Assembly (NCBI GenBank): GCA_021296265.1
Contig: JAGWAT010000004.1
Location: 1-64,000 of the forward strand
Reading direction: 5' to 3'
DNA: 64,000 bases
Source: Alphaproteobacteria bacterium
GTDB taxonomy: Bacteria; Pseudomonadota; Alphaproteobacteria; TMED109
The position numbers and the translations under genes were made by a program. The notes under the pieces were generated by a model that saw only the letters and a list, made by a program, of their open reading frames with translations, was not told where the DNA came from and ran no database searches. Positions 5,959 through 59,919 of this stretch are shown here, piece by piece. Position 1 is the stretch's first letter. Every line of letters starts with the position of its first letter.

Positions 5959-6162
5959 ATGAATACGAGATTCTGGGTCGTTGGCGGAAAGTACACGGAT
6001 ACCGCCTTCACCGAGCTCGTGAACGGGAGCGAGCGCGTAATGGGCCCCTACCTGGATCGCGAAGCAGCCCTGATTGCCTGGCGCCGGGTCGCGGACCAGA
6101 CCCGGGGCGAATGCTGCGTCCGCTTTGCCGTGGTCGAGGAATCCGCCCGCCTGAGCATCTGA
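5959..6162 (+). CDS. DUF4170 family protein
   Basis: Small 67-residue soluble protein of the DUF4170 family, which is typical of Alphaproteobacteria. The N-terminus RFWVVGGKYTDTAF and the central MGPYLDREAALIAW are diagnostic. An AAGGGAG ribosome binding site precedes the ATG. It follows aceA by 28 bases in the same direction and may be co-transcribed. The function of the family is unknown. Confidence 0.85.
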   Translation: MNTRFWVVGGKYTDTAFTELVNGSERVMGPYLDREAALIAWRRVADQTRGECCVRFAVVEESARLSI

Positions 6163-6452
6163 CCACCGCCCGCGTGCGTCGATGGGAATGCATGTTCCTT
6201 TTCGGCGCACGCGGCAGCTTCGCCGCCTCTGTCGTCACTGCAAATTTCCAATCCCGGTGCGCGGGGGGCCGAAAGCCTTCGGATCGAAGTCCTGCATGCT
6301 GGCCTCGGTTTCGTACGCGTGGCCACGCCAGCCCGGCGACGGCGGACATCTCTTCAGAGGCCGGCACTCCTGTCTGGCTGTAAGACTGCGCTTCGGACGC
6401 CAGAACCGCCATCAGGGCTATCACGGACTCGCCACATTTGGTTCCACGGGGC

Positions 6453-6815
6453 ATGGGAGAACTGCAGGAGCTCACTGCAAAGGATGCAGCAGCCCGAATG
6501 GCGAACGGTGGGTTCCCTTTGGTCCAAACAGTTGTGTCCTGACTCGAGCGCATGCACGAACGAGAGCCGGGGATCGGAGCCTAGGCGCATCGTGACAAGG
6601 CTCTGACGTTGAACGCCACAAGCCCGGCCGATGCTACGAGACCAGGCAGCCCGCTCCACGGAATTCCGATCGGCGTCAAAGACATCATCGACACTTCAGA
6701 CTTGCCCACCGAGTTCGATCCACCGATCCACGCCGGACGACGATCTCCCGAGGATGCCGCCCGCGTCGCCAAGATGAAGACGGCAGGCGCGGTGATGATG
6801 GGCCACCTAGGTTGA
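6453..6815 (+). pseudogene. Amidase (GatA-like), broken N-terminal remnant
   Basis: Read in one frame from the ATG at 6453 the DNA gives an amidase-signature N-terminus: ELTAKDAAARMANG, LERMHEREP, then PGSPLHGIPIGVKDIIDT, PIHAGRRSPEDAARVAKMK and GAVMMG. The frame is interrupted by TGA at 6540-6542 and TAG at 6582-6584, and it ends in TGA just where the family continues with the G-K-T catalytic-lysine region. About 120 of roughly 430-450 residues remain. The catalytic lysine in GVKD is present but the Ser-cisSer-Lys triad is not complete. This is a clear pseudogene with two internal stops and a 3' truncation. Confidence 0.85.
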
Positions 6816-6960
6816 CTCGACCATGCACTTGAACCTGAACGGCCGCCACCAATGGAGACCGAAGGCATCAGAGTGCCAGTGACGCCGACGAATCCCGGCG
6901 CTTTCATCCGCCTGGAGGTCATCGATCCGCCAGGTCTTAAGCGTGGCACCAGCAGCGGAT

Positions 6961-7608
6961 TCAGTTGTTGCGGGCGACCTGTGCGACCGCTTCGTCAGCA
7001 AGGCGTGCGATTTCGTCGAACCTGGATGCCCGAATGAGTGCTGGACTTACGATCCAAGTCCCGCCGCATGCGAGGACATTGGGCAGCGACAGATAGTTTC
7101 CGAGATTGTCTGGGCCAATGCCGCCGGTTGGCAGGAACTGGATCGAGGGATACGGGCCGGACAGTGCTCTCAGGAACGACACGCCGCCGCTGGCCTCGGC
7201 CGGAAAGAACTTGACGGCCTCAAGGCCGAAGCCCATTGCCTGTTCGACGCCTGTTGGATTGTTGATGCCGGGAAGGATGGGTAGATCCAGCTCGACGCAG
7301 GCCCTAACGACTGCGGGATTGAAGCCGGGCGTGACGACAAATTGACTACCGGCTCGATAGGCCGCTTCCACCTGTTCGATATTGAGAACTGTCCCGGCTC
7401 CCACCAGCATTTCCGGAATTTGCTCCCGCACCGTCTTAATCGAATCTGCCGCCGCTTCCGATCGGAACGTGATTTCGGCAACGGGCAATCCGCCCGCCAA
7501 TAACGCTTTTGCAAGAGGCGGTGCGACCTCGCAGCTATCCAGTTCGACGACAGGCAATACCCTTGCCTCCCCGAGCCGCGCCCAAACATTCCATGCATTG
7601 TCGGTCAT
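6961..7608 (-). CDS. eda: 2-dehydro-3-deoxy-phosphogluconate aldolase
   Basis: Cleaves KDPG to pyruvate and glyceraldehyde-3-phosphate, the last step of the Entner-Doudoroff and hexuronate routes. Class I aldolase of about 215 residues with the Schiff-base lysine in AVKFFPAEA. Other conserved residues are AEITFR, GAGTVL, VVTPGF and the phosphate-binding LPTGGI and CGGTW. I chose the ATG at 7608; a GTG start nine codons earlier is also open. It lies 75 bases downstream of kdgK on the same strand, so the two likely form an operon that phosphorylates and cleaves 2-keto-3-deoxygluconate. Confidence 0.93.
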   Translation of the reverse strand: MTDNAWNVWARLGEARVLPVVELDSCEVAPPLAKALLAGGLPVAEITFRSEAAADSIKTVREQIPEMLVGAGTVLNIEQVEAAYRAGSQFVVTPGFNPAVVRACVELDLPILPGINNPTGVEQAMGFGLEAVKFFPAEASGGVSFLRALSGPYPSIQFLPTGGIGPDNLGNYLSLPNVLACGGTWIVSPALIRASRFDEIARLADEAVAQVARNN

Positions 7609-7683
7609 GGTTTTCGATCCAAACTGGGTTTGCACGGCGACGGATCCGGCTGGGCCTTTGGCCTCTGGGGTTGGACAAGCCTT

Positions 7684-8613
7684 TCAGCTGCGCGCAATCA
7701 AGGCACCCCGTGCGCCTACCACCCGGGAGGCGATCTTGTGACCGGCCAAGAGACACCGCCCTTCGTCTTCGCCGTGGAGGAACGCCGCCAGATAGCCGCC
7801 GTTGAAACTGTCTCCCGCCGCGGTCGTATCGACTACATCGGGAGCCGGAGAAAATTCGGGATGTGCGCTGCGGGCGAGCCGCGGCGACACCGGGCCGAGT
7901 GCCCCCCGCTTGATGGCGCAGGCCCGCCAGTCTGAAGCGGCGAATCGGGCGAATACGGCCTCCTCGCCGGGATCGCCGAACAAGGCAATCTCGTCGTCAA
8001 CCGACGGTAGGGCTATGTCGGCAACCTCCCACATCTCGCGAACTGACTGGCGTGCGATCTCGGCATTTTCCCAGAGTTGCGGCCGGTAGTTCGAGTCAAA
8101 GGCGACATGGCACGCGCTACGCCCGCGCAGGTCGCGCAAGTGCGCGATGAGGCCCCTGCGGGCCGAAGGATGCAGGATGGCCAGCGTTATGGCCGAAAGA
8201 TAGACAACCTTTGCGGGCGGCAGGGAAGCGAGGGATTCGCCCGACGCGAACAGAAGGCGCGCCGCGGAGTTACTGCGCCAGTAGTGAAAGCTGTATTCGC
8301 CAGTGTTGTCGGTCGACACGGTATAGATGCCGAGGTTGCGTTCCTGATCCAATCCGACCTGCGAAACATCGATCCCCTCATCCTTCGCGGCGCTCAGGAA
8401 GGCATGGGACAGGGGATCACAGCCGACGCGCGTGCAATAGCCAATGCGGGCCAATGGGCCGAATTCCCTGGCGCAATAGACCGCCGTGTTGAACGTATCG
8501 CCTGCAAACCCGACACGGAAGCCGGCCGTTGGCTCGTGCCGGATCTCAGCCATGACTTCGCCAATGGCGAGCAGGTCCACGGTCACGAATCCGGTACGGT
8601 GGCAAACGTGCAC
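7684..8613 (-). CDS. kdgK: 2-dehydro-3-deoxygluconokinase (PfkB family)
   Basis: Phosphorylates 2-keto-3-deoxygluconate to KDPG, the substrate of the aldolase encoded just downstream. The 309-residue PfkB-family protein has the N-terminal LLAIGEVMAEIR with GFAGDTFNTA, and the C-terminal nucleotide and active-site signature DTTAAGDSFNGGYLA containing the catalytic aspartate. All plausible starts are GTG (8613, 8586 or 8580) and none has a strong ribosome binding site; the 8613 start is reported. No sugar acid transporter or regulator is next to the pair. Confidence 0.92.
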   Translation of the reverse strand: MHVCHRTGFVTVDLLAIGEVMAEIRHEPTAGFRVGFAGDTFNTAVYCAREFGPLARIGYCTRVGCDPLSHAFLSAAKDEGIDVSQVGLDQERNLGIYTVSTDNTGEYSFHYWRSNSAARLLFASGESLASLPPAKVVYLSAITLAILHPSARRGLIAHLRDLRGRSACHVAFDSNYRPQLWENAEIARQSVREMWEVADIALPSVDDEIALFGDPGEEAVFARFAASDWRACAIKRGALGPVSPRLARSAHPEFSPAPDVVDTTAAGDSFNGGYLAAFLHGEDEGRCLLAGHKIASRVVGARGALIARS

Positions 8614-9230
8614 GGTTTCGAGTGGTTCGTAACGTCTTGGTCGCGGTGAGAAACCAGCTGGTCTTTGTTGTGCCCCATCTGTCCGACAGTAGCCCCGAAT
8701 AAAGTATCGATCATATCGACGATCTGCTGCCCTAGAGTTCCTTCACCACTCCGCATTCAGGCAGCGCAGACCCAACGGTTTTCGAGCTTCTGTCGATCTC
8801 CAGCCCGCGCCTCCGCCTCGGCGCGCCCGTTCCGGCCCGCATAAGTGGCCGGGAACACAGTTCTGAGGCACCGTGCAGCCTTTCACGACAGCTGATCTGC
8901 GACGAAAGTGGTTTGCCAGCCGGCTGAACCTGCTTGCCGCGGACAGGACAAATCCATCACAAACAGAAATGTGTTCAAGAGCTTGCGGTGGTTGCGGGGG
9001 TAGGATGTGAGCCCATGACCTTCAGGTTATGAGGAGGGCATATCTGGGTTCCGGATGCCGGGCATGCCAGCATGGCGCTCGCCTGAGCGTGGAGCGAGCC
9101 AATACTGCCCCGACAACGCTTCTGATCAATGGCAAGAGTTAATGCCGAGCGTGGGACTGCCCTGCAATTCAAATTCAAGATGGCGTATGTGCAGCGAGTG
9201 ATTCTCGGCGCTCACCAGCCAAGTACGTCT
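8614..9230. other. 617-base stretch without an intact gene
   Basis: Between kdgK and tolB I see no protein gene. The stretch contains a tRNA 3' half (separate entry). Its only open frames are short and match no family I know. In most related genomes pal would follow tolB here, so this is probably a rearrangement junction. Confidence 0.7.
8989..9033 (-). other. 3' half of an initiator tRNA (fMet, CAT), att-site-like relic
   Basis: Read on the minus strand the sequence starts with the anticodon loop CTCATAA, continues CCTGAAGGTC, a weakened T arm, and ends CCCCCGCAACCA, as in an initiator tRNA including CCA. The 5' side does not pair: no acceptor 5' strand, D arm or matching anticodon stem precedes it. 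Integrases often recombine at exactly this half of a tRNA gene, so it may be a leftover attachment site. A full working tRNA is excluded. Confidence 0.65.
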
Positions 9231-10574
9231 CTATGACCCGGACGCCCGATCTGGCCCCCACGAAGGGTCCGAAGCGTCGTTAGGCGTCGGCAGTTCGCGC
9301 TCGCGGTTTCCCGTAATGTCGATCGTGTAAATCCGTATCGTATCGGTGGTGCCGGGACTGGGTTCGGTGCGTGCAAACGCCAGGAGACGCCCGTTGGGTG
9401 CCCAGCTCGGCCCCTCCACCAGAAATCCGTCCGCGATCAACCGCTCGCCGGTTCCATCCGGATGCATGAGACCGATGTAGAAGCGCCCTTTCACCGATTT
9501 CGTGAACGCAATGTAATCCCCGCGCGGCGACCATACCGGAGTCGTATAACTGCCTCCCCCAAAACTGATCCGGCGGGCAACGCCCCCATCTGCACTCATC
9601 ACGAAGAGATGCGGTCTCCCCGAACGGTCGGAGCTGAACACGATCCGGTCGCCCTCAGGGCTGTAGCTCGGGGACGTGTCGATGGCCCGGCCTCGAGTCA
9701 GCTGCTTGAGGTCGCCAGTTTCGAGGTCCAGGGTGAAGACGTTGGTCACGCCATCGCGCGCCAGTGACATGGCGACTTCCGATCCCTCCGGGTGGAACCG
9801 GGGTGCGAACGTCATGCCCGAGAACTGACCCAGCGCTTCGCTTCTGCCTGCGTCGAGGTCGTACCGGAAGATGCTCGGTTCGCGGCCCTGGTAGCTGAAG
9901 TAGAGAGCCCCTTTCCCATCGGGCGAGAAGCGCGGCGTCAGGACCAAGTGTGATCCGTCAGTGAGATACCGGTGGTTGGCTCCATCCTGGTCCATGATCG
10001 CGAGCCGTTTCACGCGCTCCGTCGCCGGTCCCGACTCGGCCACATACAGAATGCGTGTATCGAAATACCCGGGCTCTCCGGTCACCCGGGAGTAGATGCG
10101 GTCGGCCAGCACGTGCGCCATCCGTCGTGCCAGCGGCAAAGGACCGTTCAGGCGGACACCGATCATCTCCCGACCGCCATAGACATCCCAGGCCCGGGCC
10201 GCCACCTCGATCGTCCCGTCGCCCACATCGCGAACCGTTCCGGCCACCAGCACCTGGGCATCGATGATCCGCCAATCGCGGAACCGTGGCTGTTCTGCGG
10301 CATCCGCGGCGCGCTGCATGTAGGCATCCGGATCAATCTGGCGGAACAGCGCCGAACTCTGAAGATCATTCACGACCATATCGCCGATGTCTCCCGCGTC
10401 CGTCGCCAAGAGATTGCCGTCCACGTCGAGCGTCAGCGCAAACGGTACGGGTTCGATCCGCCCCTCGGTGATATCGATCTCGAGTGGCCCTTCCTGCGCC
10501 ACCGCGGAATGGCAGATGGCGAGCAGGAAGGCGAAGGTTGCGGTTCGTCGAAGGAAGGCTGACATGCGTGACAT
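9231..10574 (-). CDS. tolB: Tol-Pal system periplasmic beta-propeller TolB
   Basis: Periplasmic component of the Tol-Pal machine that links outer-membrane Pal with TolA and acts in outer-membrane constriction at division. About 447 residues with a signal peptide (hydrophobic TATFAFLLAICHSAVAQ), an N-terminal alpha/beta domain, and a C-terminal propeller with repeated TPRFSPDG, PRFHPEGSEVAM, PSYSPEGDRIVFSSDR and PVWSPRGDYIAF blades. The ATG at 10574 is chosen because it lies 18 bases past the tolA stop; an ATG three codons later is also possible. Pal does not follow, which is unusual. Confidence 0.95.
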   Translation of the reverse strand: MSRMSAFLRRTATFAFLLAICHSAVAQEGPLEIDITEGRIEPVPFALTLDVDGNLLATDAGDIGDMVVNDLQSSALFRQIDPDAYMQRAADAAEQPRFRDWRIIDAQVLVAGTVRDVGDGTIEVAARAWDVYGGREMIGVRLNGPLPLARRMAHVLADRIYSRVTGEPGYFDTRILYVAESGPATERVKRLAIMDQDGANHRYLTDGSHLVLTPRFSPDGKGALYFSYQGREPSIFRYDLDAGRSEALGQFSGMTFAPRFHPEGSEVAMSLARDGVTNVFTLDLETGDLKQLTRGRAIDTSPSYSPEGDRIVFSSDRSGRPHLFVMSADGGVARRISFGGGSYTTPVWSPRGDYIAFTKSVKGRFYIGLMHPDGTGERLIADGFLVEGPSWAPNGRLLAFARTEPSPGTTDTIRIYTIDITGNRERELPTPNDASDPSWGPDRASGS

Positions 10575-10591
10575 CGGGAGTACCTGGCGGA

Positions 10592-11560
10592 CTAGCGCTG
10601 TGGACGGAAGTTTAGCCGCACGCGCCGCCACAGTGCGTAATCCTCTGGCGGCAGCCCGGTGATCTTGCCGGTCCTGAGAATTGCTGCCTGGGCACTATCA
10701 AGGAGCGGACGCAGGAGCGTGTTTCGATCGACCCGATCCAGTTCCGTCTCCGAAATCTGCAGATCATGGATGGTGCCGTCCGGCTGCAGTTGGAATTCCA
10801 GGATCACCGCCATGTCATCGACCTCTTGGAGCGCCGGCGGCCGCCGCCAGTTGGCCTGTATCTGTCTCTGAATCAATCCGTAAATCCGCGCCCGGGTAAA
10901 CCGCTGTTCCGGGGTCTCGGACGTAAGCGGCGTGGGCGAAGGTTCGAGCGCCGCAAGCTGTTCGATCGTGTCCTCCAGTTTCGTGGGCGGCTCCTCGGGT
11001 CCCGGCGGCGCGGGCGTCCGTTCGGAGAGGTCCCGGAGCATGTCGTCGAAGCGCGAAGGTGGTGGCGGCGGAGCGGGAGCAGGTTCGGGAGCGGGCGCGG
11101 CCTGAGCCGTTTCCGTTGGTGGCGGTTCCGGGGACTCAGTCGGCATGGGAGTCGGAGAGGCAACCGTGGGGGCGGGTGCCGGCGCGGCTGGTTCAGGCGG
11201 TAGCGGCGAGGACCGGGACGGCGCCGGTTCGGGAGGAGGCGCCACCACCGGCGCCGGTTCAGGTGGAGGCGAATCCAGCGGTGCCCTGGACACCTCGGGT
11301 TCCGGGGGGCTCACGGCAGCAACCGGTTCCGGCGGCGGTGGCATTGGCGGAGCTGGGTCCTTCGGTTCCGGTTCCCGTTGTGGAACTGCTGCCGGCGGCG
11401 GGGTCTCGGGCGCCTCGAGCGCAGGCTCGAGTGCCTGTGCGAGCTCCACATCGATCGACGGCGGCAAGACGATCGGGCGTGACAGGGTCGGCAGGCCCAC
11501 CACTGCGAGGATCACGAAGAGGGCGTGCAGCAGGACCGATAGAACGACACTACGGCCCAC
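10592..11560 (-). CDS. tolA: TolA/TonB-type energy-transducing envelope protein
   Basis: Inner-membrane protein that connects the TolQR motor to TolB/Pal. It has 322 residues and a GTG start. One N-terminal membrane helix (VVLSVLLHALFVILAVVGL, with a Ser-His pattern typical of TolA/TonB) is followed by about 130 residues of extremely Pro/Glu/Ala-rich linker, then a C-terminal domain of about 110 residues (IYGLIQRQIQANWRRPPAL onward). The linker is proline-rich rather than the long Ala/Lys helix of enteric TolA; this is common in Alphaproteobacteria. It starts 4 bases after tolR and precedes tolB. Confidence 0.9.
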   Translation of the reverse strand: MGRSVVLSVLLHALFVILAVVGLPTLSRPIVLPPSIDVELAQALEPALEAPETPPPAAVPQREPEPKDPAPPMPPPPEPVAAVSPPEPEVSRAPLDSPPPEPAPVVAPPPEPAPSRSSPLPPEPAAPAPAPTVASPTPMPTESPEPPPTETAQAAPAPEPAPAPPPPPSRFDDMLRDLSERTPAPPGPEEPPTKLEDTIEQLAALEPSPTPLTSETPEQRFTRARIYGLIQRQIQANWRRPPALQEVDDMAVILEFQLQPDGTIHDLQISETELDRVDRNTLLRPLLDSAQAAILRTGKITGLPPEDYALWRRVRLNFRPQR

Positions 11561-58819: not shown

Positions 58820-59919
58820 GTGAAGCGCCGTTCGCCGATCCGACTGCTAGGCGGTACGACGCCCTCCTGATCGTTTCGTTCGGCGGGCCGGAAGGGATGG
58901 CGGACGTGGAGCCGTTCCTCGACAACGTGCTCCGCGGATTGACACTGCCTGAGGCTGCACGCCGCAAGGTCGCCGACCGGTATGCGAGATTCGGTGGCGT
59001 CAGTCCCATCGCTGCGCACACCCGGAATCTGGTTGCGGCGGTAGAGGAGGAACTCGCGCGGCGCGAATTTGAGCTGCCCGTTTACCTGGGAAACCGCAAC
59101 TGGCATCCCTTCCTGTCCGACACCCTTCGGACGATGGCGGCAGACGGGATCGGTCGGAGCGCCGCCTTCGTCACGAGCATGTTCAGTTCCTACAACGGCT
59201 GCCGGCGCTACCGCGAGGATCTGCACGATGCTACAAACGGGCTGGAGCAGGCGCCAGCCATCGACCGGCTTCGGTACGGCTACAACCATCCGGGCTTCCT
59301 CAAGGCGTTCGCCGACCGGGTGCACTCCGCACTCGCGGAGATCCCGGCGGAGCGGCGGTCCCGAACGCCGATCCTGTTCACCGCGCACAGTCTGCCCGAG
59401 GCGGCCGCCCGAGCCGCACCCTACGTCGCCCAGTTGCGCGAAGCATGCAGGCTGGTGAGCCTCTCACTGGGCGACCGAAACTCCCGCCGGTGGAGGCTCG
59501 TGTACCAGAGCAACAACGCGCGTTACGGCGGCGAACGATGGCTCGGCCCCGACATCTGTGATGCCGTAGTGGAGGAAAAGGATCGCGGTGAGCAGGACGT
59601 CGTGGTTGCCCCGATCGGTTTTGTCTGCGATCACCTTGAGGTAACCCTGGATCTCGACCAGGAAGCCAAGAACGCGGCTGATGCAGCCGGAATCAACCTC
59701 GTCCGCGCGGGGACGGTCGGAACCCACCCGGCGTTCGTCGCCATGGTCTGCGATCTTCTCCAGGAGCGCTCCGAGCCAGGCTCCGAGCGCATCGCACTCG
59801 GCCGGCACGGACCGAGCCACGACCTCTGCCCCTCCAACTGCTGCCTGTCGGGAAGGCCCGGCCAGCCGGGAGCTGCGCTCGGTGGCAGCCCCTTGCCGGG
59901 CCCTCGGTGGTTCCGATGA
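58816..59919 (+). CDS. hemH: Ferrochelatase of the actinobacterial (coproporphyrin) type
   Basis: Inserts ferrous iron into a porphyrin. 367 residues. LLIVSFGGPEGMADVEPFLDNVLRG, GGVSPI, VYLGNRNWHPFLSDTL, FTAHSLPE and PIGFVCDHLEVTLDLD read like mycobacterial/actinobacterial enzymes, which use coproporphyrin III. Cys129 (SSYNGCRRY) and the C-terminal CPSNCC (Cys338, 342, 343) are likely ligands of a [2Fe-2S] cluster. GTG start overlaps the Cld-type stop (GTGA); its end overlaps the next gene (ATGA). Confidence 0.92.
   Translation: MSEAPFADPTARRYDALLIVSFGGPEGMADVEPFLDNVLRGLTLPEAARRKVADRYARFGGVSPIAAHTRNLVAAVEEELARREFELPVYLGNRNWHPFLSDTLRTMAADGIGRSAAFVTSMFSSYNGCRRYREDLHDATNGLEQAPAIDRLRYGYNHPGFLKAFADRVHSALAEIPAERRSRTPILFTAHSLPEAAARAAPYVAQLREACRLVSLSLGDRNSRRWRLVYQSNNARYGGERWLGPDICDAVVEEKDRGEQDVVVAPIGFVCDHLEVTLDLDQEAKNAADAAGINLVRAGTVGTHPAFVAMVCDLLQERSEPGSERIALGRHGPSHDLCPSNCCLSGRPGQPGAALGGSPLPGPRWFR

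Follow-up and report, generated by a model that had tools for sequence, protein, structure and literature searches.

On the minus strand of the window, the whole stretch of 64,000 nucleotides analysed here, the 3' half of a tRNA-fMet gene is present downstream of tolB. Our overall explanation, which we consider likely, is that this sequence, hereafter called the scar, is an orphan attachment site, now in decay, left by an integrative element whose crossover takes place in the tRNA-fMet anticodon loop. Taken by itself, the reading of the scar as an attachment site is highly probable; the route by which it would have come to lie beside tolB, off-target integration, has about an even chance.

The scar is a decayed 3' half of tRNA-fMet

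The scar and the sequences on either side of it are the following:

8989..9033, minus strand: tRNA-fMet 3' half (tRNA positions 33-77), with the anticodon loop at 9033-9027 and CCA at 8991-8989
8950..8988, minus strand: decayed terminator hairpin, no longer predicted to form
9034..9230, minus strand: 5' flank of the scar as far as the tolB stop, without room for an integrase gene and without a match

A search for the complete tRNA-fMet gene, as the sequence-only reading of this DNA had proposed, located it in the same genome at G000:C5:41924-42000. Window positions 9033-8989 are identical to this gene at 41 of 45 bases. In the predicted fold of the intact gene the anticodon loop CTCATAA occupies positions 33-39, and the scar starts on the first base of that loop. 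The second-best site for fMet positions 33-77 on either strand of the window reaches only 24/45, and the best sites in 50 mononucleotide-shuffled windows reach 24-27, against 41 for the scar. We found no point in support of a chance similarity to fMet, and in view of these controls its probability is negligible.

The likeness extends past position 8989, with 86% identity to the region of the intact gene on C5 over 9033-8970, and 83% of 84 bp (9033-8950) to a partial copy in a congener (G006:C32), terminator hairpin included. The terminator at 8950-8988 is of the kind that follows the genome's own fMet gene and several other copies. The scar has decayed relative to the intact tRNA, with four changes in 45 bases; in its predicted fold the T-arm and the terminator hairpin of the intact gene are both lost, and the fold is no better than those of shuffled sequences (z -0.56). 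By comparison, the G006:C32 copy has a z value of -3.94, and the intact gene, terminator included, one of -5.77.

The sequence-only reading had described an fMet anticodon loop and 3' half at 8989-9033 that lack a 5' half, and this description holds. The 32 bases directly upstream match the fMet 5' half at 6/32 positions, and the best placement within 200 bases gives 17/32. ARAGORN called no tRNA at the scar, and Rfam found none there either; a covariance-model hit to a complete tRNA was what the earlier reading had named as its refutation. Together with the 5'-half comparison, these searches rule out a complete but divergent tRNA; the scar does not form the complete cloverleaf of a functional tRNA gene. 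No arm-type site of 8-10 bases is repeated within 280 bases around the scar.

As also proposed earlier, the window's own genome was searched for the 45-base core. The only matches within tRNA positions 33-77 at E <0.05 are the intact gene on C5, the scar on C10 and a copy on C36. The intact gene lies on a different contig from the scar, at a contig end, so that a pair of element ends is not demonstrable. The third match, G000:C36:8833-8871 (L165), covers positions 34-72 and immediately precedes a permease-like gene; the gene that flanks it on the opposite side has a Pfam HTH_3 domain and is of a type that mobile elements frequently carry. Elsewhere in the window (59346-59439, minus strand) ARAGORN called a 94-base tRNA-Gly, which is absent from the Rfam scan and from the whole-genome tRNA search and is probably a false call.

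Partial fMet copies in the genus share the start base of the scar

We searched seven draft genomes of the genus (G000 to G006, G000 being the window genome) with the fMet gene and its flank, and obtained two intact genes and 17 partial copies. The latter comprise all matches with an E value of 1e-3 or lower apart from the intact genes of G000 and G006; 12 weaker matches were excluded. In draft assemblies such as these, a copy in a tandem array at the fMet gene looks the same as an off-target copy. They are distributed over G001 (six), G003 (five) and G000, G004 and G006 (two each), and there are none in G002 and G005. Twelve of the 17 start at tRNA position 27-35 and are preceded by unrelated sequence. 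When a 491-bp flank from the window was used as the query, 9 of the 12 non-self matches started exactly at 9033.

In a comparison of distances that covered 15 sites (14 of the partial copies plus the G006 gene) and part of the integrase matches, a tyrosine-integrase match starts 163-218 bp on the 5' side of 7 of the 17 partial copies and is directed away from the copy. These are the copies on G001 C13, C19, C62 and C84, G003 C4 and C31, and G006 C32. Six of the seven linked integrases were scanned against Pfam, and all six contain Arm-DNA-bind_3 and Phage_integrase domains over the curated cut-off. The combination of a tRNA 3' half with an integrase at this distance is the signature of elements that recombine in the fMet anticodon loop. 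The scar has the start base of the integrase-linked copies in relatives and has decayed relative to the intact tRNA, as a relict site should. The remaining three partial copies (G001:C62:31132, G003:C4:8950 and G006:C79) have no match from the integrase search within 1 kb. A likeness, noted by eye, of the sequence before the G003:C4 copy to the 3' end of tolB was put down to chance, because an integrase begins 163 bp beyond.

In the integrase-bearing copies, the integrase gene is present on the 5' side, the counterpart of window positions 9034..9230. The integrase search near the scar that had been suggested came back empty: at E 1e-4 there is no match in the window or in the rest of the contig (62000-71415), so neither end of the scar is adjoined by an integrase gene. 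The window genome contains three integrase matches, on C4 and C34, none of them near an fMet copy. Across the seven genomes, 76 of the 83 integrase-family matches do not adjoin an fMet copy, and G002 and G005 together have 26 integrase matches (19 and 7) and not a single partial copy. Therefore, the integrase family as a whole is no marker of fMet sites. Related integrase matches number up to 28 in one genome of the genus, and partial fMet copies are present in five of the seven genomes.

Integrases of the Arm-DNA-bind_3 type are frequently arranged in closely spaced head-to-tail pairs whose two members are unlike, which could be a two-integrase module. One such pair, 55% identical, is present in the window genome (G000:C4:107952-110398, L216), and others were seen in G006 (C52, C78, C104), G002 (C31, C41) and G001 (C12, C52, C63). 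On G006:C79 (L213:12222-14942), three successive XerC-like integrase matches adjoin a partial fMet copy, an arrangement that presumably resembles the "recombinase in trio" elements.

Judged by eye, the hairpin terminators that follow the copies fall into at least four dissimilar types. This would be expected of elements that each supply a 3' half and a terminator of their own. Beyond the terminators, the long flanks of G006:C32 and G001:C62 do not match each other, and the native downstream flank of the fMet gene can therefore not be reconstructed. The comparison of right-hand flanks included copies with the same type of terminator. Following the copies on G001:C13, C84 and C6 and on G003:C31, which have one terminator type, a stretch of 0.7-1.5 kb is shared at 78-92% identity, and these elements therefore share the end that adjoins the 3' half.

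Relatives other than these seven genomes have the fMet gene and its copies on one contig. In G033, a closed genome of a single contig, there are a complete fMet gene and a second copy of 84% identity, with two 3' copies that start at position 31 downstream on the same strand and a Phage_integrase match in between; this is the usual arrangement, seen in a closed relative. In G021, a complete fMet gene is followed by three partial copies on one contig of 11.5 kb, on which no Phage_integrase match was found.

The scar is shared with a sister species and does not account for the tolB-pal split

In the sister species G001 (contig JAJDYI010000022.1) a scar is present at the same place. This scar was missed by the search that yielded the 17 partial copies and was detected by direct comparison. 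It matches in register at 34/45 bases and, with 11 changes in 45, has decayed further than the window scar. As controls, 2000 shuffles of the stretch reach 27 at most, as do 75 other tolB loci within 1.5 kb. The other five congeners have 19-21 of 45 in the 1.5 kb after tolB. From the tolB stop to the first base of the scar there are 197 bases in the window and 112 in G001. The presence of the scar in G001 also makes a local misassembly at 8900-9300 of the window unlikely.

The sequence-only reading had noted that pal, cpoB and tilS are absent from the window. Indeed, tblastn with the genome's own three proteins found no match in it at E 1e-3, and pal is located on another contig, together with cpoB and tilS. 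The same holds throughout the genus sample: pal follows tolB in none of the seven genomes, its best match and tolB are on separate contigs in every one of them, and cpoB and tilS are always next to it (names supported by Pfam). In other genera of the same family, pal is present within 1.5 kb downstream of tolB at 10 of 11 loci, and at the eleventh the pal match abuts tolB. Altogether, 124 tolB loci (some of them duplicates) were sorted into 78 with pal within 1.5 kb, 37 without it and 9 that are too short.

The earlier reading had further proposed that the scar explains the broken tolB-pal junction. The scar does sit exactly where pal would follow tolB, as pal does in other genera of the family. 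However, the two genes are on different contigs in 7/7 genomes, pal always having cpoB and tilS beside it, and five of these genomes lack the scar. Because the split is also found in species without a scar, the scar is not its cause: the split is common to the whole sampled genus, whereas the scar is found in two of its species. That the scar marks the event that separated tolB from pal is therefore very unlikely, being already contradicted unless all five species have lost the scar.

The region between tolB and aceA is disrupted in the window genome

The order of genes in the window is aceA, amidase remnant, eda, kdgK, scar, tolB, tolA, tolR, tolQ. The corresponding order in G001 and G006 is aceA, intact amidase, tolB; in G001 a GFA-domain gene is also present in between. 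The features of this region are:

9231..10631, minus strand: tolB, intact (TolB_N and PD40 matches), last gene of tolQ-tolR-tolA-tolB, 90-95% identical to that of six congeners
6957..8784, minus strand: block with the kdgK-like and eda-like genes, 82-84% DNA identity to five congeners, with ends at 6957-6961 and 8742-8784
8613-7684, minus strand: kdgK-like gene (pfkB family sugar kinase; Pfam PfkB)
7635-6961, minus strand: eda-like gene (KDPG/KHG aldolase; Pfam Aldolase)
6453..6830, plus strand: amidase 5' remnant, a pseudogene; tblastn to the intact G001 and G006 amidases covers only codons 1-126 of 429, with three stops

The tolQRAB gene order is conserved in all six congeners. The final two thirds of the amidase gene are absent from the window, its DNA similarity stopping at 6803; the G001 protein is a Pfam Amidase. 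The block with eda and kdgK is located elsewhere in the genome in the five congeners that have it, and has no match in G006. By these alignments, the pair is native to the genus and has been relocated in the window genome. In addition, neither integrase nor tRNA matches adjoin the pair in the five congeners, so that its status as island cargo is not demonstrated. In G002 to G005, the 0.5-1.2 kb downstream of tolB (L160-L163) are alike and by eye resemble a HigB/HigA-type small gene pair.

The truncated amidase pseudogene and the relocated eda-kdgK pair constitute a real local disruption beside the scar. The gene-order comparison called for earlier thus bore out a disturbance at this place. We detected no second attachment site between the scar and the amidase that would bound an element: no further match in 6501-8960 exceeds 22/45, and no second CTCATAA/TTATGAG is present on either strand within 6001-9300.

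Origin of the scar

The sequence-only reading took the tRNA 3' half for an integrase target, and the locus for the site of a past island insertion and excision or of a rearrangement. The island scar is borne out by the shared start base and by the integrases beside 7 of the 17 partial copies. Excision is less likely than decay, because an element that excised cleanly would have taken its own 3' half with it.

A scar left by an island could have formed as follows. Elements of this type include in their own DNA a duplicate of the tRNA 3' half together with a terminator; once they have integrated at the tRNA gene, one of their ends has a complete gene and the other an extra 3' half. The scar is a 3' half of this sort, terminator included. 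Such an element may have integrated off-target in the tolB-amidase interval in an ancestor of G000 and G001, which would have placed its own 3' half next to tolB. It would later have decayed by deletion, with loss of the integrase and the other end. A deletion or a later insertion would have cut the amidase, and eda-kdgK would have come between the scar and the amidase; both changes are visible in the window, and their order and cause are our reconstruction. The scar would represent the integrase-distal end, and the missing element would have extended towards the amidase, where the damage lies, since the linked copies have their integrase on the 5' side and here 197 bases on that side lead to tolB.

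The main rival to off-target integration, possible and the less probable of the two, is a rearrangement: the scar would have formed at the real fMet gene, where an island array had displaced the 3' half to its far end, and then have moved to the tolB-amidase interval by inversion, translocation or transposition, perhaps together with eda-kdgK. The terminator type shared with the own fMet gene, the changed place of eda-kdgK and the tandem 3' copies at one fMet gene in G033 and G021 are consistent with such a move. On the other hand, in G001, where the scar occupies the same position, the amidase is intact and eda-kdgK is absent from the interval, which implies that scar and eda-kdgK did not arrive jointly, unless G001 has lost the pair; moreover, the aceA-amidase-tolB interval is conserved in G001 and G006.

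An ordinary tRNA pseudogene is improbable. According to this explanation, a second rrn operon or fMet gene was once present between tolB and the amidase and was deleted by chance up to the anticodon loop. Copies of rrn operons are lost and gained, and the genome's complete fMet gene adjoins an rRNA operon (the rRNA was recognised by eye). However, the break coincides to the base with that of many unrelated copies, several of which have an adjoining integrase, and the absence of rRNA matches in the window at Rfam gathering cut-offs also argues against this origin.

Going beyond an attachment site at a single locus, the region downstream of tolB might be a recurrent off-target landing site for islands in this genus, with the orphan fMet 3' halves serving as attachment sites themselves. 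We consider this unlikely; if true, islands in this lineage would spread from the tRNA gene and turn over genes where they land (eda-kdgK here, the GFA-domain gene in G001). More generally, a lost island can be dated and located from a short remnant of a tRNA gene, and for annotation the lesson is that a scar beside a split operon need not have caused the split. Once closed genomes exist, the genus would be a fair place to study island accretion at one tRNA gene.

Comparison with known systems

The Sinorhizobium papers retrieved for tRNA-fMet deal with tRNA genes carried by phages and have no bearing on fMet as an integration target. Salmonella genomic island 1 (SGI1) is described as integrated at a secondary attachment site between sodB and purR (PMC2297512). 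The primary target of SGI1 is thdF, unlike the tRNA considered here, and the window has only a scar, from which off-target integration is inferred; what the two cases would have in common is an island lodged between genes, away from its primary target.

In domain make-up, the integrases that adjoin fMet copies in G001, G003 and G006 agree with the Arm-DNA-bind_3 integrases (Pfam PF13356 and PF00589). Unlike the loci of such integrases, the window contig has no gene of this type, and the genome's own three matches (on C4 and C34) are away from fMet copies.

The figures given for the Islander database (PMC4383910) are 3919 islands, 3760 with a 3' fragment and 2083 with an anticodon-centred site, as well as 125 tandems of two or more. 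By the filters described there the scar would fail, because it lacks an integrase, an intact tRNA partner on its contig and a second end. Like the tRNA islands in that database, however, it is a 3' tRNA fragment starting in the anticodon loop, and a tyrosine integrase adjoins such fragments in congeners; tandem arrays are a further shared feature. The scar is thus an ordinary feature of a known kind, well supported as a relict attachment site of tRNA-fMet islands.
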